Positions 3,892 through 26,607 of a DNA stretch of 43,106 nt are shown in pieces (position 1 is the first letter of the stretch; the number at the start of each line of letters is the position of its first letter). Made by a program: the position numbers and the translations under genes. The notes below the pieces were generated by a model. It worked only from the letters and a program-made list of their open reading frames with translations, ran no database searches and was not told the DNA's origin. Origin of the DNA: a virus; IMG/VR virus record IMGVR_UViG_3300036785_000714, positions 1-43,106 of that record, one strand, 5' to 3'.

Positions 3892-3903
3892 GGAATTACT
3901 CTT

Positions 3904-6530: not shown

Positions 6531-6593
6531 CGGGCTCCCTGGATGGAATCGAACCCCCAGCCGGTGTAAATTGGCATACACCTTCATCTCCCG
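6531..6593 (-). ncRNA. Structured RNA element E1 of a three-member family
   Basis: Shares with the elements at 7560 and 7639 a closing stem on GGG/CCC, an AGATGAAGG strand after the 5' stem, a GG...CC hairpin (here 6563-6568 with 6577-6582), a GGC strand and a GGAGCCC 3' end. A T-arm-like stretch (GGGGGTTCGATTCC on the minus strand) hints at a tRNA relative, but no full cloverleaf could be drawn. Further minus-5' sequence (6594-6647) can extend the pairing: 6641-6647 with 6529-6535 make 7 bp, and 6622-6626 with 6633-6637 make a 5-bp hairpin. The rest of 6283-6656 has no gene I trust; around 6391-6470 there is another folded, T-arm-like stretch that I could not resolve. Confidence 0.4.
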
Positions 6594-6656
6594 AAACCGC
6601 ACTAGGCCTAAGATCTATTTAACGTCGCCTAGTCGACGCCACCCGCTGCCATAAAA

Positions 6657-7748: not shown

Positions 7749-7777
7749 TTCATTATAGTCCGTGTAAAACGTGCGAG
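7749..7777 (-). promoter_or_regulatory. 29-bp repeat, copy B
   Basis: Minus strand: CTCGCACGTTTTACACGGAC, then TATAAT, then GAAG. The hexamer is a perfect -10 consensus. This copy has ACG where others have ATG, which breaks the possible leader-peptide start. It begins next to the stop of the 58-aa gene and points at the E3/E2 RNAs. Confidence 0.72.
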
Positions 7778-7778
7778 G

Positions 7779-7955
7779 CTATTCATCGAGTAATTCTTCG
7801 CAAAGACATGCGCAGTACACCTGTTTTATTTCAGACCACTTCATAACTTCTTGTGGAAACATGACCATTTTACATTCATCATGAAGCCCGAGATCACAAG
7901 TTGTACATATCCAAGTCGAGATACGGCTATCACCGTTGGGGGTGCTCAAATACAT
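7779..7955 (-). CDS. Cysteine-rich zinc-binding miniprotein
   Basis: 58 aa. WICTTCDLGLHDEC and VYCACLCEELL supply six cysteines in paired arrangement, consistent with one zinc site. The ATG is preceded by GAAAGGCGG. It overlaps the end of the preceding zinc-ribbon gene by 26 bases and is followed at once by repeat copy B. No named family recognised. It is one of three consecutive small cysteine-rich proteins in this stretch. Confidence 0.6.
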   Translation of the reverse strand: MYLSTPNGDSRISTWICTTCDLGLHDECKMVMFPQEVMKWSEIKQVYCACLCEELLDE

Positions 7956-8554: not shown

Positions 8555-8662
8555 TTACGCAGGCTGCGTTGCCATATATGACAGACAACCTATCACTACA
8601 AGCCAAGCTAGGATTCTGTCCCAACGCCAGCATCTTATGGGGCGAATCTTTGGTTCTCTCAT
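8555..8662 (-). CDS. 35-aa single-pass membrane peptide
   Basis: Begins with ATGA overlapping the stop of the ssDNA-binding-like gene, so translation is coupled. The N-terminal half is basic (REPKIRPIRCWRWDR) and the C-terminal half hydrophobic (ILAWLVVIGCLSYMA), an N-in membrane anchor. The frame is open upstream but runs through the neighbour without a ribosome site. No function can be given. Confidence 0.5.
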   Translation of the reverse strand: MREPKIRPIRCWRWDRILAWLVVIGCLSYMATQPA

Positions 8663-9123
8663 TCGTCTATCTCTGGTGCTGCATACTTGCGCTCGAGTTC
8701 GTCTTCTCGAATGGTAACGAACATCGATTGCAGATATGCGTTTATGCCGGTTTTCCCATTGACACTCCACTCATATGCCCGGCCGATCAAATCGCATGTT
8801 TGGATATCCGCCCAGTCCAAAACAGATACGGTCTCCTCAGTCAAAGTCGTTCGACCAGCAGATGTAATCATGATGATCCGAGGTGGACGAATATCAAACT
8901 TTACTTTCACCTGAATGAATGGAGTTGGTTCGTCGCCTTCCTCCCTAGGTTTGAAATACTTGACAAACCACCCGACGTTCGCCATCTCTTCAGCATCTTT
9001 GTTATCGAGAACAACGAGGAAGGTTCGAACTCCTACTTGCCCGAACCTATCCTCGGCACCACTGAAGTTTCTGTATACAAGTCGAGCGTTTTCAACCATG
9101 AAGGTGTCTCCATTTTGAAGCAT
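8659..9123 (-). CDS. Probable ssDNA-binding protein (OB-fold-like)
   Basis: 154 aa. The pattern NARLVYRNFSG, then VRTFLVVLDNKDAEEM, GWFVKYFKPR, PFIQVKVKFDIRPPRI, and INAYLQSMFVTI corresponds to a phage family that I remember as predicted single-stranded DNA-binding protein. The acidic C-terminus (PEIDE) fits SSB-type proteins. AAAGGA lies 6 bases before the ATG. It follows the polymerase fusion with an 11-base gap, as expected for a replication partner. The call is from family memory and position, not from a decisive motif. Confidence 0.55.
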   Translation of the reverse strand: MLQNGDTFMVENARLVYRNFSGAEDRFGQVGVRTFLVVLDNKDAEEMANVGWFVKYFKPREEGDEPTPFIQVKVKFDIRPPRIIMITSAGRTTLTEETVSVLDWADIQTCDLIGRAYEWSVNGKTGINAYLQSMFVTIREDELERKYAAPEIDE

Positions 9124-14170: not shown

Positions 14171-15076
14171 CTATTGGGTTTCTTTTCTCCCGATCAGGTG
14201 ATAGACAACGCCATCGACGTTGAAATCGAGAAGAAGAGTGTGCACATGAGCCCGGCCGCCATTCGTTTGGTAAACTTCACGAATTCCGAAATCGACGTAC
14301 CCATCTCCATCCCCGTTCTTTGCCCAGCCGACAACAGAACCTTCTTTAGTCCGTTCTATTCCAAGGTCATCGTAAGCATCATTCAGGAAATAGTGCCCTC
14401 TTGAATGCAACATATGCTTGGCATGGGCCTCGGCAGCTCTGACAAACATGAGATTGATGTCCGCACTCTCACGCCAATTAGGATTATCCGAGTCAAAGAA
14501 TCGAGCATAGACAGAAACCATCTCATCACAAGGAGGATTCAACGCATGAGTGTTGGCTCCTGAAGTCTCTTCAAGCTCAGGAAGCCTGGAATATAACTCT
14601 AATTCTTTGTCTTCTCCGATTTCCTTACGAACCCTCTCACGATAGTCATCAAGGGCTTTCAATGCACCCACCAACGTAACAGTAAGCGCTGTGTTACGCC
14701 GGACCAGTTGAACGTGCGACCCCGTCAGAGCAAATATGGAAAGTCCTCCAACCACAATGGCCGGTCCATACAGCTTTACCAGCTTGAGGGCGCTCTTCCC
14801 ATAAACAAATGAGAGATCGCCGATGTGATCATGCTCAGTGTAGCTGGTTCCAACCTTTTCTGCTGTACTCTTTCGATTGTTTTCAAGCTGGTTGACGGCT
14901 TCCAGATCTCCTTTGATCTCATCGACGGTCTCTTCCAACTTCAAGGTTGCTCGGCAAGCAAGAACACCTGCGCCAATTGCCCCAACCACCCCAACGGCAA
15001 AGAAAATATGGGGGGAGTTCTTTTTAGCTTGCAGTACGCTCCTGCCTATAATTGTTGTAAGCTTGTCAAGCTTCAT
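14171..15076 (-). CDS. DUF6353-like membrane protein, larger paralogue
   Basis: 301 aa. Two hydrophobic helices: one after NSPHIFFAVGVVGAIG (about 20-42) and one near 112-130 (YGPAIVVGGLSIFALTG). Between and after them are charged helices. The C-terminal domain begins near residue 195 (NPPCDEMVSVYARFFDSDNPNWRE) and ends with a beta-rich part. AAAGG lies 7 bases before the ATG. It shares layout with the 244-aa protein at 16469. It may insert in the host membrane during infection, for example to protect against other phages or to anchor replication; no evidence decides this. Confidence 0.72.
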   Translation of the reverse strand: MKLDKLTTIIGRSVLQAKKNSPHIFFAVGVVGAIGAGVLACRATLKLEETVDEIKGDLEAVNQLENNRKSTAEKVGTSYTEHDHIGDLSFVYGKSALKLVKLYGPAIVVGGLSIFALTGSHVQLVRRNTALTVTLVGALKALDDYRERVRKEIGEDKELELYSRLPELEETSGANTHALNPPCDEMVSVYARFFDSDNPNWRESADINLMFVRAAEAHAKHMLHSRGHYFLNDAYDDLGIERTKEGSVVGWAKNGDGDGYVDFGIREVYQTNGGRAHVHTLLLDFNVDGVVYHLIGRKETQ

Positions 15077-16173: not shown

Positions 16174-16240
16174 TCCTTTTCTCTGGTTGGATGGAAAAAC
16201 AGAATCCATGCTTTCGCACAGACTCTGTTTCTGAGAAACT

Positions 16241-16417
16241 TCAGTTTATTTCAATTGTTTCGATAACAGGCTCAACGATCTTGCAGATGTGACTGTCGTA
16301 AAACCCGCCCATCGCTGCTCCGGCAAGCACTCCCACTACTGCGACAGCGGCTGCCTTCCCAATTTGATGGCCGAGCGGACGAACATTATCCGCAACAAGC
16401 TTGATTGTCATCTTCAT
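16241..16417 (-). CDS. Small membrane protein with glycine-rich helix
   Basis: 58 aa, with AAGGA 6 bases before the ATG. The helix IGKAAAVAVVGVLAGAAMGGFY (about residues 19-40) is a clear membrane segment rich in small residues. The N-terminus is basic and the C-terminus acidic (VEPVIETIEIN). First gene after repeat copy C. Function unknown. Confidence 0.65.
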   Translation of the reverse strand: MKMTIKLVADNVRPLGHQIGKAAAVAVVGVLAGAAMGGFYDSHICKIVEPVIETIEIN

Positions 16418-16439: not shown

Positions 16440-16468
16440 CTCATTATAATCCATGTATAGTTTGCGAA
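16440..16468 (-). promoter_or_regulatory. 29-bp repeat, copy C
   Basis: Minus strand: TTCGCAAACTATACATGGAT, then TATAAT, then GAG. Perfect -10-like hexamer. It begins within 3 bases of the stop of the 244-aa gene and ends 22 bases before the small membrane protein ATG, so it can drive the transcript that leads into the replication genes. Confidence 0.72.
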
Positions 16469-17203
16469 TCAGCTACACAAAGGACTCACATAGTTGTAGT
16501 CAAACGCGATACATGGCTCTCCATCTTCTGAGAGAACCGTGGAATACCTTATCTCGAGTAATCTTGGAGAAGCCCAACCAACATTTGGAGATTGCGAAGT
16601 AGATCTCAGCCCGATCAGGTCATATAACTCATCCAGAGGCACATACAACTCGTTATTGACCCTGGAATTGATGATATTCTCGGATCTTCTGAGTTTTTCT
16701 ATGTCACTTCTGAAATATCGTCCTGTGTATAGCTCACAACACAGAATATGACCAGAACCTGTTATGATCACCTCTTGAGGCTTCGGCGGATTCTTAGTTA
16801 CATACTCCTCCGCGATCTCATCCCGGACCTTCTGTTCCTTCCCTTTCCCAAACTGTTCGGCAACCTTCTCTCGATACTCGGAGAACGCTTTGTCCGTTAT
16901 GGAATATGCCGCAACAGCCGCAAGTGCTCTCTTGTTAGTAGCTCTGGACGCGCACAGAATGCATCCAACTGTCGCAGTACCAGATATAACCGCTGGCACA
17001 TAGAACTTCCACACCTTTGCGGCTAGTTCCTTCTTAGGAAGCTCCTCTTCTTCCTTTATAAGAACTTCTGCTGCTTTGAATGACCCTCGAGCTACCAAAT
17101 ATGACGTTACAATAACCCCTCCAATACCAAGCGCAGTGAATATGGCTGGTGAATTCGCCTTGACTGTTTTGACCGCGTTTGTAAATATGGATTGTACGTC
17201 CAT
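16469..17203 (-). CDS. DUF6353-like membrane protein
   Basis: 244 aa. Hydrophobic helices near residues 19-40 (SPAIFTALGIGGVIVTSYLVA) and 68-84 (FYVPAVISGTATVGCIL), a third weaker one around 93-103, then a soluble domain with KPQEVIITGSGHILCCELYTGRYF and a C-terminal beta-rich part. The N-terminal layout is the same as in the 301-aa paralogue (VKANSPAIF versus AKKNSPHIF), showing common origin. The ATG overlaps the stop of the 47-aa gene (TAATG). Function unknown. Confidence 0.75.
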   Translation of the reverse strand: MDVQSIFTNAVKTVKANSPAIFTALGIGGVIVTSYLVARGSFKAAEVLIKEEEELPKKELAAKVWKFYVPAVISGTATVGCILCASRATNKRALAAVAAYSITDKAFSEYREKVAEQFGKGKEQKVRDEIAEEYVTKNPPKPQEVIITGSGHILCCELYTGRYFRSDIEKLRRSENIINSRVNNELYVPLDELYDLIGLRSTSQSPNVGWASPRLLEIRYSTVLSEDGEPCIAFDYNYVSPLCS

Positions 17204-17346
17204 TATCGTCTTCTCATCTCCCTAACAAAGATATAGACGAGCCAAAGCCCGCATGTGAGGAATATCATGATGACATCTCCCAGAAAATTGAAAAATCCGT
17301 ACTTCTTTCGAACATGAACCTTGAATGTATCCACATCAATTCTCAT
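17203..17346 (-). CDS. 47-aa membrane protein
   Basis: The sequence RKKYGFFNFLGDVIMIFLTCGLWLVYIFVREMRRR is a basic-hydrophobic-basic single-pass or hairpin segment of a type I have seen repeatedly in siphovirus accessory regions. GAGGA lies 6 bases before the ATG. The start overlaps the upstream gene by 11 bases and the stop overlaps the downstream ATG. Possibly an exclusion-type protein; that is speculation. Confidence 0.65.
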   Translation of the reverse strand: MRIDVDTFKVHVRKKYGFFNFLGDVIMIFLTCGLWLVYIFVREMRRR

Positions 17347-17581
17347 ATAGTTTCCTCGGTTCTGGAATCCTCATACTCATCTTCACTTTTTTTGGTCCAC
17401 GTATGGCAAGATCGGTTATAGCACCTGTAATTTCTGGCTTAGCCCAACCTCTCTTTTCCAAATCCATAACCATTATCACCGCTTTGTAGACGCGATAGCT
17501 TCCAAATGCCCACAAAGCTGCTGGAACGGTGGCACTCACTGCAAGTGCTGCGACACTCGTTGCTGTTATTGCTTTCTTCAT
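17336..17581 (-). CDS. Small membrane protein
   Basis: 81 aa. After a lysine-containing start comes a long hydrophobic stretch (ATSVAALAVSATVPAALWAF, about residues 6-27), then a soluble basic part ending with MRIPEPRKLYEN. It could also be read as a secreted protein with a signal peptide (cleavage after an Ala pair), but a membrane anchor is more likely. AGGA lies about 5 bases before the ATG. First gene after repeat copy D, separated from it by a structured leader. Confidence 0.7.
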   Translation of the reverse strand: MKKAITATSVAALAVSATVPAALWAFGSYRVYKAVIMVMDLEKRGWAKPEITGAITDLAIRGPKKVKMSMRIPEPRKLYEN

Positions 17582-17715
17582 CTCTTCCTCTCATAAAAAA
17601 AATATAGCATGTTGAAGAGCATGGGTTCATGGCCCAACGCAAACCATGATTTAGCAGTATTGCTCCTGCACCAGGTGGGTGGGTCTTTCACCCACGCATT
17701 CGTGTCTCACCTCTC
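17582..17715 (-). promoter_or_regulatory. Structured mRNA leader ending in a T8 tract
   Basis: 134 bases between repeat copy D and the 81-aa gene with no gene. A perfect 7-bp hairpin with a 7-nt loop lies at 17675-17695 (GTGGGTG/CACCCAC). Further 3' on the minus strand, TCATGG/CCATGA pairing overlaps GAGCA/TGCTC pairing, followed by eight T residues (17595-17602) just before the ribosome site. Hairpins plus T tract ahead of the gene look like an attenuator or leader control element. Inference only. Confidence 0.4.
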
Positions 17716-17744
17716 TTCATTACAATCCATGTAAAACGTGCGAG
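17716..17744 (-). promoter_or_regulatory. 29-bp repeat, copy D
   Basis: Minus strand: CTCGCACGTTTTACATGGAT, then TGTAAT, then GAA. The first 15 bases equal copy B. It directly follows the T-tract of the terminator at 17747-17778. Confidence 0.75.
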
Positions 17745-17746
17745 GA

Positions 17747-17778
17747 GAGAAAACCAAAGTCCTTGTAGCTGACTTTGG
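17747..17778 (-). terminator. Intrinsic terminator after the 58-aa membrane gene
   Basis: 8-bp stem CCAAAGTC/GACTTTGG (17754-17761 with 17771-17778), 9-nt loop, followed on the minus strand by TTTTCTCT. It is 8 bases after the gene stop at 17787 and flush with repeat D. Confidence 0.75.
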
Positions 17779-17786
17779 CTTTGGAA

Positions 17787-17963
17787 CTACTTCTTGTTCC
17801 GCACTCTGTAGTTGACTTGACGGACATAGGCCCGACGACTCCTCACAGAGCTCATCGAGTCGGCTACCTTGGCAACAGCTGTTGCTGCCACGGCACCGAT
17901 CGCGACGACCTGCATGGGGTTCTCGTCCCAAGCCTTCTTGATCCGTGTCTTCCAATTCTCCAT
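17787..17963 (-). CDS. Small membrane protein
   Basis: 58 aa, with AAGGAG 5 bases before the ATG. N-terminal amphipathic ENWKTRIKKAWDENP, then PMQVVAIGAVAATAVAKVA (about residues 16-34) as membrane helix, then a strongly basic tail (RSRRAYVRQVNYRVRNKK). It stands as a single gene between repeat copy E and a terminator, i.e. its own transcription unit. Function unknown. Confidence 0.68.
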   Translation of the reverse strand: MENWKTRIKKAWDENPMQVVAIGAVAATAVAKVADSMSSVRSRRAYVRQVNYRVRNKK

Positions 17964-17985
17964 TGTGACTCCTTCAATTAGTTCT

Positions 17986-18014
17986 TCCATAATAATCCAT
18001 GTAGAATATGCGAG
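17986..18014 (-). promoter_or_regulatory. 29-bp repeat, copy E
   Basis: Minus strand: CTCGCATATTCTACATGGAT, then TATTAT, then GGA. One of the more diverged copies, but spacing is unchanged. It directly follows the terminator at 18016-18047. Confidence 0.7.
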
Positions 18015-18015
18015 C

Positions 18016-18047
18016 GAAAAGCTAAATCCCTGTATTAGGGACTTAGC
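18016..18047 (-). terminator. Intrinsic terminator after the 69-aa membrane gene
   Basis: 11-bp stem with one G-T pair (18021-18031 with 18037-18047, GCTAAATCCCT/AGGGACTTAGC), 5-nt loop, then TTTTCG on the minus strand. It lies 9 bases after the gene stop. Stem sequence resembles the terminators at 18580 and 18907. Confidence 0.78.
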
Positions 18048-18055
18048 CTTTTGAA

Positions 18056-18265
18056 CTATTCGGTAATTGTGGTTGCCTCTTCAAGAAGGACCACTCCGAC
18101 GGGCGAAAGGCCATTGTCCTTCGTGACCAACTTGGTAAGGCCAACGATCCCAACTGCCATCGTGATGACGCCAGCAGCGAACGTAAGCCCACTCTTGTGG
18201 TCGCGAATGAATCGCTTGACCCTCGACTCGTCGGTCGAGTTCTTCTTGCTTGTGGTGGTTTCCAT
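18056..18265 (-). CDS. Small membrane protein
   Basis: 69 aa, with AAGGAG 5 bases before the ATG. Polar, charged N-terminus (residues 1-27), then SGLTFAAGVITMAVGIVGLTKLV (about 28-50) as membrane helix, then a short tail. It stands alone between repeat copy F and a terminator. Function unknown; a single-gene unit of moron type. Confidence 0.68.
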   Translation of the reverse strand: METTTSKKNSTDESRVKRFIRDHKSGLTFAAGVITMAVGIVGLTKLVTKDNGLSPVGVVLLEEATTITE

Positions 18266-18283
18266 TTCTTCTCCTTAATTGTT

Positions 18284-18312
18284 CTCGTTATAGTACATGT
18301 ATTTTATGCGAG
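18284..18312 (-). promoter_or_regulatory. 29-bp repeat, copy F
   Basis: Minus strand: CTCGCATAAAATACATGTAC, then TATAAC, then GAG. It ends 18 bases before the ATG of the 69-aa gene. Most diverged copy in the 3' half (GTAC instead of GGAT). Confidence 0.68.
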
Positions 18313-18318
18313 AAGAAG

Positions 18319-18552
18319 TCAGTCTTCAAGCTCTAATAATGCTGTATTGAGTAACCCTCTTGATCGATACTTTGGTATTTCACCGTTTGAAAAGAACATC
18401 GGATACGAATATCCCTTATCTGGATCTGAGTTGTCACAAAATCCAATAACAACCCAATCGATTAGAAGATCATTTTCATCATGATCCTCATTACTCGTTA
18501 AAACACGATTCAATGCTTCTTCGATAATTGCTGATGCTTCTTGTCCTGTCAT
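18319..18552 (-). CDS. Soluble conserved phage protein (DUF7213-like)
   Basis: 77 aa from an ATG with AAGGA 4 bases upstream. It starts TGQEASAIIEEALNRVL, then NDLLIDWVVIGFCDNSDPDKGYSYPMFF, ending with a YRSRGLLNTALLEL helix. This three-part pattern matches a short actinophage family I recall as DUF7213, of unknown function. It is the only soluble protein among these small units. No own repeat precedes it: it lies just behind a terminator, so expression would need read-through from the upstream unit or another promoter. Confidence 0.68.
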   Translation of the reverse strand: MTGQEASAIIEEALNRVLTSNEDHDENDLLIDWVVIGFCDNSDPDKGYSYPMFFSNGEIPKYRSRGLLNTALLELED

Positions 18553-18570
18553 GTATCCTTCTTTGATCGG

Positions 18571-18604
18571 ATTAAAAAACCTAAACCCTTGTCGGGGGCT
18601 TAGG
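18571..18604 (-). terminator. Intrinsic terminator after the 79-aa membrane gene
   Basis: 9-bp stem (18580-18588 with 18596-18604, CCTAAACCC/GGGCTTAGG, one G-T pair), 7-nt loop, followed by six T on the minus strand (18574-18579). It lies 7 bases after the gene stop and is the best T-tract of the set. Confidence 0.82.
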
Positions 18605-18611
18605 CTTTGAA

Positions 18612-18851
18612 TCAACCTTCTCTGGTAACGATGTCCCAGAAATTTGCAGTGGCGATGTTCTTCTGGAGGTCGGCGTTAAGGCCGGTCAACTCCTCGAGGT
18701 ACCTGTCCATTCCGATGGCGAATGCTTCTTTGTCCTCAGCCAACTTGGCTTCGAATCTCTCATTCGACTTCAGAATTTCATTTACTACGAGGTATGTTGC
18801 GACCGCAACTCCTCCCCCAATAAGAATCGCTTTTGTTGTAATTCCAAACAT
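18612..18851 (-). CDS. Small membrane protein with coiled tail
   Basis: 79 aa from the ATG with AAGGAG 4 bases upstream. TTKAILIGGGVAVATYLVV (about residues 5-23) is the membrane helix, followed by a charged helical tail (NERFEAKLAEDKEAFAIGMDRYLEEL) that could form a coiled coil. The frame is open upstream into repeat G (giving MDCNEENNLRR), which I treat as untranslated. A single-gene unit between repeat G and a terminator. Function unknown. Confidence 0.68.
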   Translation of the reverse strand: MFGITTKAILIGGGVAVATYLVVNEILKSNERFEAKLAEDKEAFAIGMDRYLEELTGLNADLQKNIATANFWDIVTREG

Positions 18852-18872
18852 GATTCTCCTTAGATTGTTTTC

Positions 18873-18901
18873 TTCATTACAATCCATGTAAATTATGCGA
18901 G
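18873..18901 (-). promoter_or_regulatory. 29-bp repeat, copy G
   Basis: Minus strand: CTCGCATAATTTACATGGAT, then TGTAAT, then GAA. Identical to copy H over all 29 positions. It starts at the last base of the T-tract of the terminator at 18902-18930, so terminator and repeat form one fused spacer. Confidence 0.78.
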
Positions 18902-18930
18902 AAAAAGCTAAGCCCTTGTAGGGGCTTAGC
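18902..18930 (-). terminator. Intrinsic terminator after the 42-aa gene
   Basis: Perfect 9-bp GC-rich stem (18907-18915 with 18922-18930, GCTAAGCCC/GGGCTTAGC), 6-nt loop, five T on the minus strand. It lies 4 bases after the gene stop. Confidence 0.85.
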
Positions 18931-18934
18931 CTTC

Positions 18935-19063
18935 TTATTCTCCTAGCTTCCGGTTGATGATGATTGATACAGATCCATCTTCATGGATAACGATCTTCTG
19001 GTCCTTGCGAAGTGCATTCGCAACGGTCAGAGCGTTTTTCCAGTTCTTGATGTATGTACGCAT
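18935..19063 (-). CDS. Very small soluble protein
   Basis: 42 aa with GGAGG 6 bases before the ATG. A helix (RTYIKNWKNALTVANALRKDQ) is followed by a beta hairpin-like KIVIHEDGSVSIIINRK. It is framed by repeat copy H and a strong terminator, which supports it being a real gene despite its size. The frame is open upstream through repeat H, but without a ribosome site. Function unknown. Confidence 0.62.
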   Translation of the reverse strand: MRTYIKNWKNALTVANALRKDQKIVIHEDGSVSIIINRKLGE

Positions 19064-19087
19064 TCTATTCCTCCAAAAATTAGTTCT

Positions 19088-19116
19088 TTCATTACAATCC
19101 ATGTAAATTATGCGAG
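19088..19116 (-). promoter_or_regulatory. 29-bp repeat, copy H
   Basis: Same 29 bp as copy G. It ends 24 bases before the ATG of the 42-aa gene. Upstream on the minus strand a T5 tract follows pairable GGCC blocks (19133-19136 with 19151-19154), a possible weak terminator. Confidence 0.76.
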
Positions 19117-19335
19117 ATTTTGCATGAAAAACGGCCCAAATCACAGGAAAGGCCTCTGTGAGGCTGTCTAATCGATTTGAGCAAATATCGGGCACATTGG
19201 TACCTAGAAATTATTTGGAGGGCTCAGAACGAATCCTAGAGGGGTGTTTTTTCAAAATGTTTACAGAAAAATTTCCCCGGGGGTTTTTTGGGATTGAAAA
19301 AAATAAATCCATATTGGAAAAACGAAAATATGAAA
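19117..19335 (-). other. Non-coding stretch between two accessory units
   Basis: No gene with a ribosome site is visible on either strand. Near 19126-19164 several hairpins exclude one another (TCACAG/CTGTGA, GCCTC/GAGGC, GGCC/GGCC), followed on the minus strand by GTTTTT. Around 19277-19284 is a CCCCGGGG palindrome flanked by A/T runs. It could hold a terminator and relics of a lost gene. Confidence 0.35.
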
Positions 19336-19364
19336 CTGTGTAAGCTTCTCAAACTCTTACACAG
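19336..19364 (-). terminator. Terminator-like hairpin after the 97-aa gene
   Basis: Perfect 9-bp stem CTGTGTAAG/CTTACACAG (19336-19344 with 19356-19364), 11-nt loop, then TTTCATATTTTCGTTTTT on the minus strand. The T-tract is interrupted. It lies 37 bases after the gene stop. Confidence 0.65.
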
Positions 19365-19401
19365 CTTCACATTCTCGAATACAGACTTTTACCTGTCTCG
19401 A

Positions 19402-19695
19402 CTATCTCGGTTGAATCGTCCGATTCAAAACCTTGGTGGTCAAAACGTGCTTCTGTTCATATATCAGGATCATGATCAATCCCGCCAGATTACCCGCAAT
19501 GAGGGCTATTGTATCTCGGCTTATACGCGGCGCACGTGATCTCACGCGAACCTCGCTAAGCTTCTCCAAATATCCCACCATCTGTGAATACTCCTGCGAA
19601 TTGACTCCAATCTTTGACATGTTCTCCAGAACCGCATTCATCTCATCCTCAAGATTTGATGTCTGACTTCTCTCAAAGAGAAAGTATCTTAACAT
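19402..19695 (-). CDS. Conserved membrane-anchored phage protein
   Basis: 97 aa, with AAAGGA 4 bases before the ATG. It begins LRYFLFERSQTSNLEDEMNAVLENM, a helical soluble part (residues 1-55), then SRDTIALIAGNLAGLIMILIYEQ (about 59-81) as a membrane helix and a basic tail. I recall this family from gut and actinobacterial siphoviruses near the tail/replication border; no function is known. First small unit after the tail genes, between repeat I and a terminator-like hairpin. Confidence 0.78.
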   Translation of the reverse strand: MLRYFLFERSQTSNLEDEMNAVLENMSKIGVNSQEYSQMVGYLEKLSEVRVRSRAPRISRDTIALIAGNLAGLIMILIYEQKHVLTTKVLNRTIQPR

Positions 19696-19712
19696 GGCAT
19701 CCTTTCTGTTCT

Positions 19713-19741
19713 CTCATTAAAGTCCATGTATAGTTTGCGAT
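19713..19741 (-). promoter_or_regulatory. 29-bp repeat, copy I
   Basis: Minus strand: ATCGCAAACTATACATGGAC, then TTTAAT, then GAG. It overlaps the last codons and stop of the 104-aa gene (stop at 19717-19719), so it is preserved although it lies in coding sequence. It ends 18 bases before the next ATG. Confidence 0.7.
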
Positions 19742-20031
19742 TCTTCCTCAGGTTCGATTACGACTTTGAAGGAGACAATTTTCATATTGATGATCTCTCC
19801 GGGATCTTGATTCAATTCTAAGGATATGATCTTCTTTCCATCCACAGATGTGACTACAATATCCCCGTCGTAATGTGTTGGTGGTATCCAAAACCACAAA
19901 CCGAAGAATATAGCCAAAACAAACAAAACACCACTTATTTCGACGATATTGGAAAAACCCAAGTTATATGCAACAATAATATACAAAAATGCCAAAGCTA
20001 GAACAGAAACGTGAATTATGCGTCTATTCAT
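19717..20031 (-). CDS. Two-helix membrane protein
   Basis: 104 aa, GAGGA 4-5 bases before the ATG. Two hydrophobic helices (about residues 6-24, HVSVLALAFLYIIVAYNL, and 28-50, IVEISGVLFVLAIFFGLWFW) are followed by a beta-rich soluble domain (GDIVVTSVDGKKIISLELNQDPGE). It follows the hub gene by 11 bases with no repeat in between, so it belongs to the tail transcript, and its end contains repeat I. Function unknown. Confidence 0.7.
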   Translation of the reverse strand: MNRRIIHVSVLALAFLYIIVAYNLGFSNIVEISGVLFVLAIFFGLWFWIPPTHYDGDIVVTSVDGKKIISLELNQDPGEIINMKIVSFKVVIEPEEESQTIHGL

Positions 20032-20042
20032 GATATCCTCTT

Positions 20043-21194
20043 CTATGGTCCTGGATCTGGTCCCCCTCCGCCTCCCGAACTTCCATAATCATCAACAATT
20101 AGTGTCGGATATCCATTTTCGCCATTTTCGTCTTCCATTTCGACATATTCAGATACACGCATACGAGTAGTTTCGTTATATTGTCCATATATGCTGATTA
20201 AGTCCCCAACTTCGTAATCTTCACGATATGTGGCAGTAAGACCCTCTTTTGATGGTTCCGCTTTTGTCAAAATAACTGGATTTTGGGAACTAAGTACCTC
20301 TTTGCCTCTCTGGGTCAATGCCGCGACTATAGCATTTATGGTTGTTTCATCCGAAGGCTGGTTTTGGTATTCACCATCAATATCTTTGGCTTCTATCCAC
20401 ATCCATCGTCGTTTAGCACCTATTTCTGTAGGATATACCACAACTTCAAACCATTTCCCGGATACGAGAGCAGCATTCTTATCTGTCTTGTTACTCCACA
20501 GATAATCTCCACCAATTATGTCACCTGCAGAGTATGAGAGCATTACTTGCTTGCTTCTATCAACTCCTGAGTATATGATAATGTACGGCTTATTCGCGCT
20601 TCCGTTCTGAGAGCTAGGATAAGGACGAATTGCTTTTATCCCAAGATCATCAATTTTAGCCATTTCTTCCATGGCTCCATACAAAGGACCTCTTTTGACG
20701 GTTCTTTCAACTGGAAGATTAGGTCCTGTTCCATCCCAATAACAATAAATGTTTGGAATATTGTTATCAGGATTATATGGATCGTTTACAGCATGTTCGT
20801 CAAACATGAATTTGATTTGCTGTCCAACCTTCATGGCATTTAAGCCGTACTCGTCCCAAGACACTTTAGGAAAACCCGGTTGAGACGATCCTACAACTCT
20901 ACAATCGAAAAATGTTTCGTATCCTCTTCCTGTAACTGTAAGAGTTGGATCTTCACCTTCATTATCGACAATTTCATGATTTTCAACATGCATTAGAATC
21001 GGGCTGTTTACTTGTGATACTAAAGCTCCAATCGGAAGTCTTTTTTGAATATCACCCGTCGCAGAAGCAGTAAATGTAAATTCACTTGAAGAAGCGTATC
21101 GTTCGATCCACATCTTTGTATCAAGTCCATTAATAATATCACCATATTGAATCACTGTTGAGTTTGCTGGATCATTGAATACGATAATATCCAT
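20043..21194 (-). CDS. Tail hub protein, Gp37-like
   Basis: 383 aa from ATG 21194 (TAATG overlap with the distal tail gene). It starts DIIVFNDPANSTVIQYGDIINGLDTKMWIERY; the motif GRGYETFFDCRVV and the C-terminal YREDYEVGDLISIYGQYNE agree with the siphovirus Gp37-like / tail-associated hub family that follows the distal tail protein. It should form the trimeric hub at the tail tip under the tape measure. The extreme C-terminus is a glycine/proline linker (SSGGGGGPDPGP). No lytic domain is seen. Confidence 0.82.
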   Translation of the reverse strand: MDIIVFNDPANSTVIQYGDIINGLDTKMWIERYASSSEFTFTASATGDIQKRLPIGALVSQVNSPILMHVENHEIVDNEGEDPTLTVTGRGYETFFDCRVVGSSQPGFPKVSWDEYGLNAMKVGQQIKFMFDEHAVNDPYNPDNNIPNIYCYWDGTGPNLPVERTVKRGPLYGAMEEMAKIDDLGIKAIRPYPSSQNGSANKPYIIIYSGVDRSKQVMLSYSAGDIIGGDYLWSNKTDKNAALVSGKWFEVVVYPTEIGAKRRWMWIEAKDIDGEYQNQPSDETTINAIVAALTQRGKEVLSSQNPVILTKAEPSKEGLTATYREDYEVGDLISIYGQYNETTRMRVSEYVEMEDENGENGYPTLIVDDYGSSGGGGGPDPGP

Positions 21195-22027
21195 TACACC
21201 CCCCAGTACATTTGGTAATAAGAAATCGATTTCCAAGAAATGTTAATGTCATTAAACTTGAAAACATTGTACCCAGGAAATATGATTGGCCAAGAAGAAC
21301 CAGGTCTTATAGCATCGGCTATAAGAATCTTATTACTACCTCGAAGAATATAAACTTCTTTTGGGTCTTCGCTAGATACGTGTAACACATCGTTTAAAAC
21401 ATATCCACCAGATGGAGTAACATTGAAATACCACTCACCATCAGGATCACTGATAACCACTCCTGGTAAATTTGAAGTTCGAATAGTAACTTCATATGTA
21501 AATCCATGTGGAGCAGTTGATCTTGTGTCGGATATAATCGTGTATTCCGTACTTAAGTCTGTAATATCGACATTTATAGGGTTAGGTGCTTTCAATAGAG
21601 CATTCTTACAGAATATAGTAAGAGTTACTTCCTGCGTCCTGGCAAAGTGAGGAGCTTCAATTTTGGATATGAATCCAGAAAGCGTAGCAACAACTTCAGA
21701 GCCATTCTTGAAATATAAATCAACTTCTCCAGCTCTTGATGAAGAAATCGCTTTATAGATGGCGTCCCTCAAGTCGGAATGAGATTCTCCTTCTCCTTGA
21801 CGAGGATTCAGACTTATCAGAAAGACTACATTACGATTTTGAGTATATAGAGTGTAGTATTTCGAAGCCTGACCGATCCCGACATGTGGTTGAGCTAATA
21901 TCTCTTCTGCATCAAGACCGGTAATCTCTTTGATGTTGAATGCATTGCGTCTCGTCGGATCACGAAAGCTAAGGACCATGATGTCGCTGGAGTTTCTTAC
22001 ATGAATTTCTACAGATGTCAATTTCAT
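21194..22027 (-). CDS. Distal tail protein (Dit-like)
   Basis: 277 aa, expected size for a distal tail protein. N-terminal beta-domain, then RTQEVTLTIFCKNALLKAPNP, the typical Dit phrase before the galectin-like C-terminal domain (GVVISDPDGEWYFNVTPSGGYVLND ... GSNKILIADAIRPGSSWPIIFPGYNVF). Position directly after the tape measure and before the hub fits. It should form the hexameric ring joining the tube to the tail tip. It overlaps the tape measure stop by 4 bases (ATGA). Confidence 0.85.
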   Translation of the reverse strand: MKLTSVEIHVRNSSDIMVLSFRDPTRRNAFNIKEITGLDAEEILAQPHVGIGQASKYYTLYTQNRNVVFLISLNPRQGEGESHSDLRDAIYKAISSSRAGEVDLYFKNGSEVVATLSGFISKIEAPHFARTQEVTLTIFCKNALLKAPNPINVDITDLSTEYTIISDTRSTAPHGFTYEVTIRTSNLPGVVISDPDGEWYFNVTPSGGYVLNDVLHVSSEDPKEVYILRGSNKILIADAIRPGSSWPIIFPGYNVFKFNDINISWKSISYYQMYWGV

Positions 22028-25000
22028 GAGATCTTCAACTCCTCCTTGGCCAACTTGATCTGACTCTTCGTATTCCGGTAAATATCATTCGTCGTCAAGG
22101 CTGTTGGAGCATTGATTGTCTGCTCAAAGTTAACTTGAGCTGGTGCGGGTGGTGTAGAAGTAGCTGCTACTTGGGCCGCAAGAGTTGCTGCAGATATAGC
22201 ATTGGCTTGCTGGAAAGAAGCATTTGGAACGACAGATCCAGATCCAACGTATCCCGAAATATCTTTCGCAGCCTTCTGGACATTGGTCAGATCGACAACA
22301 GGTGTAATGACTGGATTCAAGCTCTCAAGATCAGCAAGCATACTAGGAACTTTATTCAAACTATCTTGAATAGCAGTAACTGCACTAGTTGCCAAACCTT
22401 CTGCACTGCTAGCAACAGAAGTATCATTATTCAAAGCTATGGCCATACCTTCGGCCATCCATCCACCAAGTTCCATAAATGCCTTTGATGGGCTATCGGC
22501 GCCAACAGCACTCTTAGCATGTGCCAAAGCCTTACTAGCCAGATTAGCAGCACCTTCAGCAACCTTTTCAACTTTCGAAGCCATCCCTAAAGTCACACCG
22601 TCAGCAATAGCCAATCCAAGTTCTTTAGCATCCTCTCGAATTTTTGGTGCATGAGTTCTAATTGCTGTAGTCAAACCTTCCAAGAATTGCTCGAGTACCT
22701 TAGCTGCAGCCTCTGCAAGCTTTAGTGCATTCTTTCCCAAACCTTCAATAAACGAAATGATAACAGCAACACCGGCTGAGACAATATCTTCTGATTTTTG
22801 ACCAATTCCAGTAATAACTGCAATAATCAAATTTGCACCCGCGGTGATAATTTCTCCGAGATGCTTTGAAAGGGAATTGAGGAACGTCACAATAAGGCTT
22901 GCGACGGCGGTTACAATTTGATCCAAGCTGGCTGCAATACCATTGACAAGACTGACAATAAGTTGTACACCAGCCGCAATGATGTAAAGAAGGTTGTTCT
23001 GAATAGCTTGAACAAACGTCACAATAATTGTGGTAACCGCATTTACAACCTCGATAATGTTGCTTGTTATACCAAACAAGAATTGAATAAGTAATTGGAA
23101 ACCAGCATCTATGATTTGAGAATATGAACCAATCAGAGTCTCAAGGAATGACGTAATCAGATTTACTGCAGCTTCACCAATCAGAGGAATGTTGTCAGCT
23201 ATGCCGTTGATAAAGTTTGTTATGATTTCAACACCGACTGTGACAAACTCGCCAACATGATCAGATATGCCTTGCAGGAAAGCAAGGATCATCTCATTGG
23301 CTGTTTCAATGATCTTCGGGAAGTCCTCTCGAATGATCTTGAAGACCTCATCAAGAAGCACTCTAATAAGCTTACCAAGTTTCGGTATGAACTTGATTAG
23401 CTCGTCAGCAAGCGTATCAAGAACTTTCCCCAACATCTTGATAAGATCTGGAAGTCCTGCTAAGAAGTTCTTGACGAAGTTGACGGCGAACAGAGCAAGG
23501 TCAGCAGCCAGTTTTGGTAGAGCTTGCCCGATAATATCGAGCGCTTTGACAATGGCCAGAGCTCCTACAACTCCAGAAGCAGCCATAACTTGGAAAGCTG
23601 TCGCCGCAAGAAATGCTCCTGCTCCGAACAGCATAAATCCAGCTCCAATTACGATAAGAGCAGCTCCAAGAGCCAACATTGCTGGAGTAATCTCTGCCAG
23701 AGCTATAGATGCAACAGCGAGAACCGCCAATACCCCTACCAAAGCCAGCAAAGCAGTTACAATCTGCGCAATGCTCAATTTTCCGAGCGTAACGAGCACT
23801 TTTGCCAGAATATCCATTGCTTTAGCAACGACAATCATGGCTGCGGCGCCAAGAATAGCTCCCTGCATGGCATTAACAGCCACTACAAGAATAAGAAGCA
23901 TCGCAGCGAAGCTGATAAGTCCCTTAGCCAATGTTGCAAGACTGAGACTACCCATCATCTTGACTGCACCAGCCATTACTCCAAGCGCCACACTAAGAAC
24001 AAGAATTCCTGCCGCTGTAATAGGCAAACTTAGAGGCATTGCTTGCATAGCTACGGCAATAATTATCAATCCGCCAGCTATACCGACCATTCCTTTGGCC
24101 ATTTCGCCCCACGACATGCCTGCAAATGCTGATACAGCCTTTTGCAATATCGTAAGACCAACAGCAATCTCGATGAAACCCAATCCAGATATAACACTAG
24201 ACGCAGGCATAACCGTCAATGCGGCTGCCACCAAAGCAACCCCAATACCAACCCCGACGAGCCCCTTGGCCATGTCTCCCCAGGACATGTCAGCAAACGT
24301 TTTTACTGCATGACTGAGAATAAGAAGACCAACAGACATCGCAAGTAAACCAGCACCCGCCGCGATAAGCTTGACTGGATTTGCAGATATGATTTCCGTG
24401 GCGATTACAAGAATTCCAAGAGCAACAGCAATGCCTATAAGACCTTGCGCAAGTTGCTTTGGACTGAGCCGACTGAGAACAGCTATTGCGATTGACAGAA
24501 TATCAATGGCAGCAGCAATGCCTATCAATGCTCCACTAACAAGAAGCAACTTAGCTCCGCCGGAAGTGGATGTGATCCTGTTCAATATCTCCAATGTTCC
24601 GGCAAGCTCACCAAAGCCAACTGCCATAGCAGTCAAGGCCTTTGTCAGAGCGACAGAATCGATCAAAGATAGGACAACAACAGCAGCAGTAAGAAGAGCA
24701 ATCGCCTGAGCGATCTTCATAAGTGCTTCTGACTTGATCTTCATCTGAAATGATTGAAGCGTCTTTGTGAGCTCAGTGAAAATTCCATTCACCTTACCCA
24801 TAAGCCCGCCGGTAAGATCCAGTTTCAATCCATGCTTAAAGAACTTTTGAAGCATTACAACGATTCCGCCAAGAAGACCGACATTCAGAACGTCGATAGC
24901 CGAGTTGAAGTCTGTGGAATTCATTGCTTTGGCAATGTTCTGGCCAAGATTAGAGAAGAACGTAGAAATGTAATTCCCCACCTTGTCCAAAGCATTCATG

Positions 25001-26607
25001 ATCCAATCGAATGCGGAACCCATACCCTTGAAGACGCCTTGAACTCTTTTGGCACCACTTTCAATAGACTTGAATCTGTCAGATACATTGTCTTTACCAA
25101 ATGACATACTGAAGAAGCTGCCTATGGCCTTCCCGATCTTCTTGATCCAGTTAATCGCACTGGCGATGGCATCTCCGAGACCAGCGAAGAAAGCATGGAG
25201 ACGCCCACCATCAACAAGAAAAGTCTTGAGCTTCGTAAGCGCATCTCCAACACCCGCCCCGAAGGAAAGGAATCCTTTTGATGCTGGAAATAGGGCCGCA
25301 AGCAAGTCCCCAAAGACTAGAGCAAGACCTTTAATAATTTCCCATCCGATTGATAAGACTGAGAAGAATCCAGAAAAGATGCTCTTAAGCTTGTTTGCCG
25401 TATCTGCTCCCATTTTGAGGTGCTCTGAAAACTTCTTGAATGCTTCAGAGATTGAGAGAAGTGTTGAAGTAGCTTTTGGAGGAAAAATGTTTGTGAAAGC
25501 ATCCTTGGCAATACCAGCAATTTGCTGAATGAGTTTGAAGATGTTCATGAATCCAGCAGCAAAATTAGGCATCGACTTCGTCAGATTAGTGAAGTCAATA
25601 CCCTTGATCATATTGATCAAGTTGCCTGTAGCGATTCCCTTCATCTTAAGGAAGGCATCGATGAGGGGTTGGAGGGCAGCCGTCACGCTGTCTATAGCAG
25701 GTGTAAGAGCATTGAATAGGTCTCGTTGTTGCTCTCGCTCTGGGCCGAACCAGGCGGCGCCAAGCCTTGACATGGCTGCATGAAGGTTGGCTAGTGAACC
25801 GGTATAGGTCTCGTTGGCCTGAGTAGCGTGGGCGCCGAAAGCTTGGTCCATGGCAGCGGCAAAGGTCTTATAGTCAAGCGTCCCTGCCGTCGCCATCTGG
25901 TGGATTTCGCTCTCGGTCTTACCCATTTGCTTACCCAAGGCTGCAGCTGCATTCAAGCCTCGAGTAGCAAACTGCTGAAGGTCAATGTTCGTAATTCTTC
26001 CTGAAGCCGCTGACGTAGTGAACAGATACGCCATGTCGCTAAAGGAAGAACCAGTCATAGCCGCTGTGCCAGCAATGCCACGAAGAGACTGTGTCATGTC
26101 TTTTCCGGCGCCAATACCAGAAGCAGCAAACTGAGCAGCTGCCTTCGCAGCTTCGTCCAATCCGTAAGCTGTTCCCTTCACAGCTCCAAGTGCACTCGCC
26201 ATAGCCTGGTCTACATCAACACCTAGGCCTCTGAACTGGAACTTTGCCTGCTCGATGTTGTTGGCTCTAGTTTTACCACCGGTAATGATAGGTTCAAAGA
26301 TGTCTTTCCTGGCCCAATTTTCTACGAACTTCATTGCTGAAGTGGTTAGATTTTGGATGACCGTAAATCCAATAGCCCCAAGTGCACTAAATCTACTAGC
26401 AATCTTTTGAACCCCAGCTGCCATTCCAGAAAGATCTACTTTTGAAGCAGCCGTGCCAACATCCTCGAGACCCTTAGAAGCCCCTTTGAATTCAAGTTTT
26501 GCATTCAACTTGTCCAGGCTTGAGATGGTGGCGGCAACATTCTTTTCGAAATTTGCATTGTCAAACCTAATCGATACTATTCGATTGTCAACACTATTAG
26601 CCACCAC
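22024..26607 (-). CDS. Tape measure protein
   Basis: 1,527 aa, the longest gene. The N-terminal third carries the tape-measure domain (KFQFRGLGVDVDQA, GTAYGLDEAAKAAAQFAASG, GMTGSSFSDMAYLF-like segment and GTLDYKTFAAAMDQAFG). The middle has long alanine/leucine/isoleucine-rich hydrophobic helices (about 640-1080), which may form the membrane channel during ejection. Residues about 1130-1370 hold repeats of roughly 36 residues of the form N-x-I-x-x-I-x-x-F-x-x-x-I-x-x-N. The C-terminus is less ordered. Length sets a long tail by the usual rule. The start is GTG (a second GTG follows), overlapping the previous gene by 11 bases. Confidence 0.93.
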   Translation of the reverse strand: MVANSVDNRIVSIRFDNANFEKNVAATISSLDKLNAKLEFKGASKGLEDVGTAASKVDLSGMAAGVQKIASRFSALGAIGFTVIQNLTTSAMKFVENWARKDIFEPIITGGKTRANNIEQAKFQFRGLGVDVDQAMASALGAVKGTAYGLDEAAKAAAQFAASGIGAGKDMTQSLRGIAGTAAMTGSSFSDMAYLFTTSAASGRITNIDLQQFATRGLNAAAALGKQMGKTESEIHQMATAGTLDYKTFAAAMDQAFGAHATQANETYTGSLANLHAAMSRLGAAWFGPEREQQRDLFNALTPAIDSVTAALQPLIDAFLKMKGIATGNLINMIKGIDFTNLTKSMPNFAAGFMNIFKLIQQIAGIAKDAFTNIFPPKATSTLLSISEAFKKFSEHLKMGADTANKLKSIFSGFFSVLSIGWEIIKGLALVFGDLLAALFPASKGFLSFGAGVGDALTKLKTFLVDGGRLHAFFAGLGDAIASAINWIKKIGKAIGSFFSMSFGKDNVSDRFKSIESGAKRVQGVFKGMGSAFDWIMNALDKVGNYISTFFSNLGQNIAKAMNSTDFNSAIDVLNVGLLGGIVVMLQKFFKHGLKLDLTGGLMGKVNGIFTELTKTLQSFQMKIKSEALMKIAQAIALLTAAVVVLSLIDSVALTKALTAMAVGFGELAGTLEILNRITSTSGGAKLLLVSGALIGIAAAIDILSIAIAVLSRLSPKQLAQGLIGIAVALGILVIATEIISANPVKLIAAGAGLLAMSVGLLILSHAVKTFADMSWGDMAKGLVGVGIGVALVAAALTVMPASSVISGLGFIEIAVGLTILQKAVSAFAGMSWGEMAKGMVGIAGGLIIIAVAMQAMPLSLPITAAGILVLSVALGVMAGAVKMMGSLSLATLAKGLISFAAMLLILVVAVNAMQGAILGAAAMIVVAKAMDILAKVLVTLGKLSIAQIVTALLALVGVLAVLAVASIALAEITPAMLALGAALIVIGAGFMLFGAGAFLAATAFQVMAASGVVGALAIVKALDIIGQALPKLAADLALFAVNFVKNFLAGLPDLIKMLGKVLDTLADELIKFIPKLGKLIRVLLDEVFKIIREDFPKIIETANEMILAFLQGISDHVGEFVTVGVEIITNFINGIADNIPLIGEAAVNLITSFLETLIGSYSQIIDAGFQLLIQFLFGITSNIIEVVNAVTTIIVTFVQAIQNNLLYIIAAGVQLIVSLVNGIAASLDQIVTAVASLIVTFLNSLSKHLGEIITAGANLIIAVITGIGQKSEDIVSAGVAVIISFIEGLGKNALKLAEAAAKVLEQFLEGLTTAIRTHAPKIREDAKELGLAIADGVTLGMASKVEKVAEGAANLASKALAHAKSAVGADSPSKAFMELGGWMAEGMAIALNNDTSVASSAEGLATSAVTAIQDSLNKVPSMLADLESLNPVITPVVDLTNVQKAAKDISGYVGSGSVVPNASFQQANAISAATLAAQVAATSTPPAPAQVNFEQTINAPTALTTNDIYRNTKSQIKLAKEELKIS

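Follow-up and report, generated by a model that had tools for sequence, protein, structure and literature searches.

A predicted array of accessory cassettes sharing a promoter-like repeat in phages that encode a two-barrel RNA polymerase

INTRODUCTION

Composite promoter-terminator motifs known as PeSLs have been described in T4-like phages (Arbiol 2010; Comeau 2014, cited in PMC4503421). As cited there, a repeated early promoter joined to a stem-loop lies between small genes and is held to mediate modular shuffling. In the Gordonia cluster DJ phages Vardy and Conley, an intergenic motif of 50 bp or 43 bp occurs in five copies per phage and was read as a sigma-70 promoter (PMC9671010, PMC10868162); neither paper links it to other clusters, a polymerase, unit turnover, or RNA. 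Arrays of small membrane-protein genes have also been reported in Arthrobacter AM/AU phages and in the Rhodococcus phages Pepy6/Poco6. These represent the same gene array as the one analyzed here, and the available part of that report describes no promoter motif or cassette structure for them (PMC5513430). Finally, gp64/gp96 of phage P23-45 and YonO are two-barrel phage RNA polymerases (PMC10770324, PMC5467207). In P23-45, the start sites share a conserved motif that tracks the polymerase (PMC10770324), while the promoter sequence recognized by YonO is still to be determined according to the paper describing it (PMC5467207). The repeat itself is known from two Gordonia DJ phages, and promoter-terminator shuffling cassettes are known from T4-like phages; what we add is the breadth of the motif, its link to a polymerase, indels that match single units, and an RNA cargo.

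RESULTS AND DISCUSSION

Organization of the array

The window is a viral DNA of 43,106 nucleotides (IMG/VR record IMGVR_UViG_3300036785_000714, positions 1 to 43,106). A 31-bp promoter-like repeat with the motif TCGCA-N5-TACAyG-N3-TATAATGA is present in nine copies, all on the minus strand, toward which every gene of the array is also oriented (Table 1). Matches to the repeat were absent from 100 dinucleotide shuffles, and a position weight matrix (PWM) with a threshold of >12 bits retrieved the nine sites on the coding strand and none on the opposite strand.

Table 1. Features of the array and associated genes in the window, in order of decreasing coordinate
Feature	Position	Strand	Remarks
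Promoter repeat 1 (unit 1)	19714-19744	-	PWM 26.2 bits; AGAATCGCAAACTATACATGGACTTTAATGA
Unit 1 gene, 97 aa	19402-19695	-	hydrophobic stretch; phrog_5818
Terminator of unit 1 (hairpin near 19336)	19331-19369	-	14-bp stem, then T-rich tract; just after first gene
Promoter repeat 2	19089-19119	-	PWM 32.6 bits
Unit 2 gene, 42 aa	18935-19063	-	no homologue in array of relative G001
Terminator of unit 2, abuts repeat 3	18905-18932	-	AGGCTAAGCCCCTACAAGGGCTTAGCTT
Promoter repeat 3	18874-18904	-	PWM 34.0 bits
Unit 3 gene, 79 aa	18612-18851	-	one hydrophobic stretch; no homologue in G001 array
Terminator of unit 3	18577-18607	-	hairpin scoring
77-aa soluble gene without own repeat	18319-18552	-	weak DUF7213 / phrog_4307; no homologue in G001 array
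Promoter repeat 4	18285-18315	-	PWM 33.3 bits
Unit 4 gene, 69 aa	18056-18265	-	hydrophobic stretch; GC 0.54
Terminator of unit 4, abuts repeat 5	18020-18048	-	hairpin scoring
Promoter repeat 5	17987-18017	-	PWM 24.9 bits
Unit 5 gene, 58 aa	17787-17963	-	phrog_18827; GC 0.56; 65% identical in G001
Terminator of unit 5, abuts repeat 6	17752-17780	-	hairpin scoring
Promoter repeat 6	17717-17747	-	PWM 31.4 bits
Unit 6: predicted structured RNA with pseudoknot	17600-17717	-	covariation; no Rfam 15 match
81-aa gene behind structured RNA, without own repeat	17336-17581	-	
47-aa membrane-type gene	17203-17346	-	94% identical in G001
DUF6353 membrane protein	16469-17203	-	phrog_2152
Promoter repeat 7	16441-16471	-	PWM 31.7 bits
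58-aa gene of unit 7	16241-16417	-	
Terminator-like hairpin behind 58-aa gene of unit 7	16198-16229	-	hairpin scoring
Single-strand annealing protein, candidate recombinase	8659-9123	-	phrog_4787, E 1.2e-56
Promoter repeat 8, right arm	7750-7780	-	PWM 38.7 bits
Promoter repeat 9	3865-3895	-	PWM 22.0 bits; upstream of genes leading into exonuclease and RNA polymerase
Two-barrel RNA polymerase (phrog_4291)	337-3009	-	invariant SGADFDGD; probable HTH segments near both ends

The original prediction viewed the region as a string of moron-like units, each made of a repeat, a single small gene, and a terminator. This description fits only in part: the 77-aa gene follows a terminator without a repeat, and the unit behind repeat 6 begins with a structured RNA. 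Promoter, gene, and terminator signals are all present in units 1, 2, 4, and 5, the other units being incomplete; several have no recognizable terminator. The products were also thought to be mostly small membrane proteins, and a hydrophobic stretch was indeed found in four of the six small proteins encoded between 17787 and 19695, but not in those of 42 and 77 residues.

All four predicted intrinsic terminators were recovered by hairpin analysis, as was a fifth hairpin, located after the first gene and found at the same place in most relatives. In annotation tables, the position of the first gene likewise holds a gene of similar size in relatives. The T-tracts, previously described as long, are in fact short (about 4 to 7 T). 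Three terminators directly adjoin the next repeat, forming fused spacers of 59 to 64 bp (17717-17780, 17987-18048, and 18874-18932), in agreement with the anticipated length of about 60 bp. Across 16 genomes, a terminator ends at most 60 nt upstream of 39 of 156 promoters, compared to 3.6 expected. We thus consider it likely, from sequence alone and in the absence of transcription data, that the region is a cassette array with a shared promoter class, short cargo, and an often fused terminator; promoter activity and separate transcripts remain inferences.

A structured RNA as cassette cargo

The first element behind repeat 6 is predicted to fold into a pseudoknotted RNA, with compensatory changes in 20 of its 23 pairs. 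Searches against Rfam 15 returned no match at E values up to 5 for the window sequence and up to 1 for four relatives. Judging from its covariation, this element is a previously unreported structured RNA that takes the place of a protein as cassette cargo. Rfam hits obtained between 15 and 21 kb of the window were rejected as chance-level matches, and ARAGORN detected no tRNA in the window.

Conservation of the motif with a two-barrel RNA polymerase

Since a nucleotide search of phages with the window gave only a single distant gene hit, relatives were reached through the polymerase. The 16 relatives examined in detail come from Streptomyces, Gordonia, Arthrobacter, Rhodococcus, Curtobacterium, Microbacterium, and Lactococcus, together with a Faecalibacterium phage. 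The motif was present in 16 of 16, on the coding strand only and with essentially no match in shuffles, yet only weakly in the Faecalibacterium phage; Clostridia MAG prophages carry it as well. Conley, which is among the relatives analyzed, has 13 sites, of which 8 fall in the interval from locus 18741 to 25567 to which the published copies are assigned. In 13 contigs chosen solely for carrying the two-barrel RNA polymerase of this lineage, the motif was found in every case, and all 84 matches lay on the coding strand. Among contigs that match the motif exactly and are at least 39 kb long, every one carried the polymerase, compared to 7 of 40 in a control set drawn from IMG/VR hits to a short core pattern, which are mostly chance hits. 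A scan of bacterial and archaeal genomes totaling 257 Gb gave 10 exact matches, several of them in MAGs that also carry the polymerase. A universal motif copy beside the polymerase gene was expected but not found, with an above-threshold site at most 2.5 kb upstream in 20 of 64 loci. Co-occurrence of motif and polymerase could merely mark common descent.

The DxDGD catalytic motif of the polymerase takes the form ADFDGD, invariant in 12 homologues, and Foldseek matched the predicted fold to QDE-1 (5.7e-10) and P74 gp62 (6.3e-7). Given the low global TM-score, these are domain-level matches only, and a sequence-profile search of the PDB returned HTH-like and designed-protein pieces without finding the polymerase fold. 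By catalytic motif and modeled fold, the requirements for the two-barrel (DPBB) superfamily are nevertheless met. The enzyme thereby falls in the same superfamily as those of P23-45 and YonO but differs from them in belonging to another clade with probable built-in HTH segments, in the TATAAT-like end of the associated motif, and in that its activity is inferred.

Which polymerase reads the repeat

The end of the motif matches the TATAAT −10 element at 5.55 of 6 positions on average, as in a canonical sigma-A/sigma-70 site. The remaining features of such a site, a −35 or an extended −10, are not met, as a TTGACA-like −35 accompanies 22 of 156 repeats (29 expected) and an extended −10 TGn only 2 of 156 promoters. 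Lacking a −35 box, the motif is not an ordinary host promoter. Moreover, phages whose hosts belong to different genera and phyla retain TCGCA-N5-TACA, which points to a phage-encoded factor as the most likely reader. The best candidate is the phage's own two-barrel RNA polymerase, an inferred and unproven identity to which we give about even chances. The fuller proposal is more tentative and falls somewhat short of that: the repeat would be the dedicated promoter of an HTH-containing clade of two-barrel phage RNA polymerases, spanning phages of Actinobacteria to Clostridia and Lactococcus, and would form with its fused terminator a self-insulating insertion socket carrying proteins and a new structured RNA family. 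Initiation by this polymerase is itself inferred.

It is possible, although less than probable, that host sigma-A RNA polymerase uses the TATAAT −10 while TCGCA and TACAyG are binding blocks for a phage activator or repressor controlling when these genes are expressed, leaving the cassette logic unchanged. The near-perfect −10 would be usable with such an activator, the authors of the Vardy and Conley reports took the motif for a sigma-70 promoter, and in the window a repeat precedes the polymerase-leading operon, whose first expression would otherwise require the polymerase itself. Against host recognition stand the missing −35 and extended −10, the retention of TCGCA-N5-TACA across host genera and phyla, and the failure to identify a universally shared activator. 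We regard it as unlikely that the repeats act as operator sites for a phage repressor, comparable to SP-beta repeats or mycobacteriophage stoperators, and only happen to lie at promoters. Many short, asymmetric intergenic sites at a fixed place beside TATAAT would suit operators, but all are coding-oriented and overlap the −10, and no integrase or repressor was found among the window genes scanned, which did not cover every ORF.

Gain and loss of single cassettes

Turnover was examined in near-identical isolates, considering distinct indels of at least 240 bp. In seven of eight, both edges lay within −66 to +38 nt of a promoter start, at the promoter/terminator spacer. Two indels have precisely the length of the spacing from one promoter to the next, namely those separating Tanis from Gravy (323 bp) and Popy from HazuAndZazu (an acetyltransferase cassette of 394 bp); the indel between Rima and Jaylociraptor comes close (342 versus a spacing of 338). 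Several junctions share 36 to 70 bp of sequence. Overall, 19 of 36 breakpoints were near promoters (5.9 expected), and many of the others border length-neutral diverged blocks. Between the window and its nearest relative, G001, whole cassettes differ between conserved genes. These observations bear out the expectation that genes are gained or lost as units by recombination at the spacers, and support the notion of a modular insertion platform for accessory genes.

In the model we propose, the 31-bp repeat serves as the phage-class promoter of each unit and precedes one short cargo; in many units, an intrinsic terminator joined to the promoter that follows completes the cassette. The cargo is either a structured RNA or a small protein, frequently of the membrane type. 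Because the spacers recur, recombination between them could add, remove, or swap a single cargo, presumably without disturbing neighboring units. The phage annealing protein may plausibly drive this exchange, although its role is inferred. The first unit is kept while later ones turn over.

Junctions at gene boundaries are common in mosaic phages. Ordinary mosaicism under selection for intact genes, with spacers marking junctions merely as gaps, could explain such positions as well as the length-neutral swaps seen away from repeats; we find it improbable, though not negligible, given that some indels equal the promoter spacing exactly, that junctions lie within the conserved core or the fused terminator, and that large indels cluster at promoters. 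Insertion by a dedicated mobile element or site-specific recombinase with hotspots at the repeats would agree with cargo changing exactly there but is very improbable, as no recombinase or target-site duplication was seen and the junctions in the present sample are spread over terminator, core, and leader rather than fixed at one base and contain shared sequence of an ordinary kind, a pattern expected of homologous recombination.

Relationship to described systems

Like PeSLs, the array combines a repeated promoter with a fused stem-loop terminator, at the frequency given above, and its cassette genes appear to be shuffled, as inferred from unit-exact indels at spacers and not from crosses. 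It differs by occurring in a siphophage lineage that is unrelated and encodes an RNA polymerase of its own, by a conserved motif without a −35, by evidence that consists of unit-exact indels between near-identical isolates, and by including RNA cargo. A host-type early promoter in a T4-like phage, as in PeSLs, is not what we find. Given the other phage lineage and the lack of a −35, the array operates in the manner of a PeSL without belonging to that class. With the DJ motif, it has in common the genome region, TATAAT, terminators, and membrane-protein genes.

If correct, this interpretation provides a visible rule for accessory gene gain and loss in a widespread phage lineage, one expression-ready unit at a time and at recurring promoter-terminator spacers. 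It also singles out a specific candidate for the promoter that a family of two-barrel phage RNA polymerases would recognize. A region of hypothetical genes would become a map of likely transcription units, whose cargo, including RNAs and tRNAs, could be spotted in numerous phage genomes. The structured RNA, which covaries strongly, is a further addition, although its function is not known.

The label of moron applies in part. As in phage morons, units are inserted between genes adjacent in relatives, and several have sequence signals of a promoter and terminator of their own; such insertion is seen for the window versus G001, Tanis/Gravy, Popy/HazuAndZazu, and others. However, some units consist of two genes or an RNA, the terminator is sometimes unrecognizable, and the array is serial, with one shared promoter class and an often ordinary GC content. 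Unit GC ranges from 0.37 to 0.56 around a genome value of 0.447, and that of the Popy acetyltransferase is 0.50 versus 0.60.

Architecture of the small-gene array

The 43-kb IMG/VR virus record carries its main genes all on the minus strand, in the order terminase, portal, capsid protease, tape measure, minor tail genes and a stretch of small genes, followed by DNA primase/polymerase, annealing protein, helicase, exonuclease and, at 337-3009, a terminal 890-aa RNA polymerase of family phrog_4291. This order recurs in phages of Gordonia (cluster DJ), Arthrobacter, Streptomyces, Rhodococcus, Curtobacterium and Microbacterium, whose RNA polymerases are about 46-55% identical to that of the window; Lactococcus and Faecalibacterium phages share it as more distant relatives. 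A 31-bp promoter-like repeat occurs nine times on the minus strand of the window, but not on the plus strand or in shuffled sequence. The original prediction was of a string of one-gene units; the string is real, but some of its links depart from the pattern of a single repeat, protein gene and terminator. The four terminators and fifth hairpin that it placed behind single small genes were again predicted at the same positions, and in three cases the terminator is indeed fused to the next repeat, with spacers of 59-64 bp.

Repeat-headed units in the window
Unit	Repeat	Cargo	Predicted terminator or hairpin	Strand
1	19714-19744	97-aa gene	hairpin 19331-19369	-
2	19089-19119	42-aa gene	terminator 18905-18932	-
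3	18874-18904	79-aa gene; then 77-aa gene without repeat	terminator 18577-18607 (after 79-aa gene)	-
4	18285-18315	69-aa gene	terminator 18020-18048	-
5	17987-18017	58-aa gene	terminator 17752-17780	-
6	17717-17747	structured RNA, then genes of 81, 47 and 244 aa		-
7	16441-16471 and onward			-

A palindrome-like AAATTTCCCCGGGGG / AATTCCCCGGGGG element lies in non-coding DNA (19250-19300), 3' of the first unit's terminator and immediately ahead of the second promoter; its position is matched in G001 (the nearest relative), Damascus, contig89 and Gordon. Near the array is a phrog_2152 (DUF6353) paralogue pair of 244 aa (16469-17203, minus strand) and 301 aa (14171-15076, minus strand). Elsewhere, long collagen-like Gly-X-Y repeats are encoded by two genes close to the structural end (373 and 456 aa; 39136-40257 and 40951-42321, minus strand), a 50-bp direct repeat with 86% identical copies 400 bp apart (36130-36179 and 36530-36579) is probably a partial gene duplication, and a Pistol ribozyme (RF02679) was detected at 6585-6638 on the minus strand (41.3 bits; gathering score 34.5).

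Distribution of the repeat

A weight matrix that started from strict matches and was then refined on the window together with 16 relatives gave the consensus cTCGCAnaAWWTACAyGgcCTATAATGA. In 15 of the 16 relatives it identified between 6 and 14 sites for each genome or partial genome; in Faecalibacterium phage FP_oengus the sites numbered one to two and were weak. All sites in relatives were on the coding strand, with none on the other and almost none in shuffles, and the series starts directly behind the last minor tail or holin gene. Since the matrix was trained on the same genomes that it scored, the weight falls on this strand asymmetry and on independent tests. All 13 long contigs picked solely for encoding the polymerase contained the motif (84 coding-strand copies, none opposite). 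Among the matches listed, 34 of 44 IMG/VR contigs with the exact motif encoded the polymerase, including every listed contig of at least 39 kb; for contigs with only the short core pattern the figure was 7 of 40, and at all seven loci the matrix also scored a site above threshold. The exact motif gave only 10 matches in 257 Gb of bacterial and archaeal genomes, and four of the 10 genomes encoded the polymerase. Loci with 6-7 sites each in Oscillospiraceae, Ruminococcus and Blautia MAGs are presumably prophages. Lactococcus phage P078 has another sequence in place of the TCGCA block but retains TACAT-N4-TATAATGA. Judged from sequence alone, the repeat is a lineage-wide promoter-like element.

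Gain and loss of units

Comparisons were made between pairs of near-identical isolates. The difference between Tanis and Gravy is 323 bp, precisely the distance from one promoter to another, and a 394-bp acetyltransferase cassette present in Popy but not in HazuAndZazu also equals the promoter spacing, its junction falling within the 31-bp core. Between Rima and Jaylociraptor the difference is 342 bp (promoter spacing 338), with the junction in a predicted terminator; two units, of 299 and 322 bp, distinguish Jaylociraptor from Meibysrarus, and additional stretches of 242 and 402 bp distinguish Popy from Jaylociraptor. For seven of the eight distinct indels of at least 240 bp, both edges lay -66 to +38 nt from a promoter start, the exception being one of 411 bp. 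When all breakpoints were counted, including those of length-neutral diverged blocks, 19 of 36 were near a promoter (5.9 expected), and several replacements had a single edge there (Tanis/Roney, Jaylociraptor/TieDye, HazuAndZazu/Popy). In G001, whose flanking tail genes are 74-80% identical to those of the window, cassettes of 73 and 47 aa take the place of the 42-, 79- and 77-aa genes, between neighbors that are 37-94% identical. In these comparisons, genes were mostly gained and lost as units at the spacers, as had been anticipated. Judged from sequence comparison, the evidence for such exchange at promoters is strong but not exhaustive, because few events were sampled, some of the pairs depend on one another, and the tally leaves out indels at repeat-free gaps elsewhere in the genomes. 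Several events share 36-70 bp at the junction, which would fit annealing-type recombination, possibly involving the phage-encoded annealing protein.

A structured RNA as cargo

No plausible coding start was found for about 135 nt behind the sixth repeat. Homologues of this segment exist in Tanis, Conley and IMG/VR contigs, and each of the 23 sequences inspected has a promoter repeat 10-26 nt upstream. With 27 members, one of them weak, a covariance model and alignment gave 97.3% paired cells, compared with 77% in shuffles and 33-49% with slid partners, and compensatory changes in 20 of 23 pairs. A four-pair pseudoknot includes one pair that is GC in 13 sequences and UA in 10, without exception. 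These pairing figures are flattered, as the alignment was fitted to the structure; the initial MAFFT alignment already had compensatory changes in 10 of 18 predicted pairs. No Rfam 15 family matched. Since the RNA is a separate unit between two promoters in Tanis and precedes a gene in the window, it could act either in trans or as a leader. A second, weak copy (22 bits; 11162-11277 of contig L185) adjoins the strong one and is perhaps a diverged tandem copy. In ReqiPoco6, a tRNA-Ala immediately behind a repeat (L116, 14600-14711) forms a further RNA-carrying unit.

Relation to known systems

Earlier reports describe the repeat in two DJ phages, where it is a 43-50-bp motif that contains TATAAT and lies close to terminators and genes for membrane proteins (PMC9671010, PMC10868162). 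Gene arrays of Arthrobacter AM/AU and Rhodococcus phages have been noted (PMC5513430), and promoter-stem-loop cassettes of T4-like phages are held to mediate shuffling (cited in PMC4503421). The cassette principle is therefore already known, as are parts of the present example. Within the open literature, four aspects appear to be new: the breadth across host phyla, the link to a single polymerase clade, indels that match units exactly, and the structured RNA.

Candidate reader of the repeat

The TATAAT at the repeat end matches at a mean of 5.55 of 6 positions; at these sites, TTGACA-like -35 hexamers were not above chance and no extended -10 was found. The polymerase carries an invariant SGADFDGD, the two-barrel catalytic signature, and its predicted structure (mean pLDDT 78.5, moderate confidence) shows domain-level matches to QDE-1 and to the phage polymerases of P23-45 and P74. 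Its ends resemble helix-turn-helix (HTH) segments; the similarity of the C-terminal one to sigma-70 region 4 and resolvase HTH is below threshold. Among relatives of P23-45, a conserved start-site motif tracks the presence of the polymerase (PMC10770324); by analogy, the phage polymerase is the best candidate reader of the repeat. Against that, co-occurrence of motif and polymerase is explained equally well by common descent, and reading by the host polymerase with an activator remains possible. The homologue of this polymerase in Rhodococcus phage ReqiPoco6 (L116, 46741-49461) is labeled a structural protein in its record, citing Lactococcus phage 1706 gp75; this unverified annotation is a hint that would fit a virion-carried polymerase.
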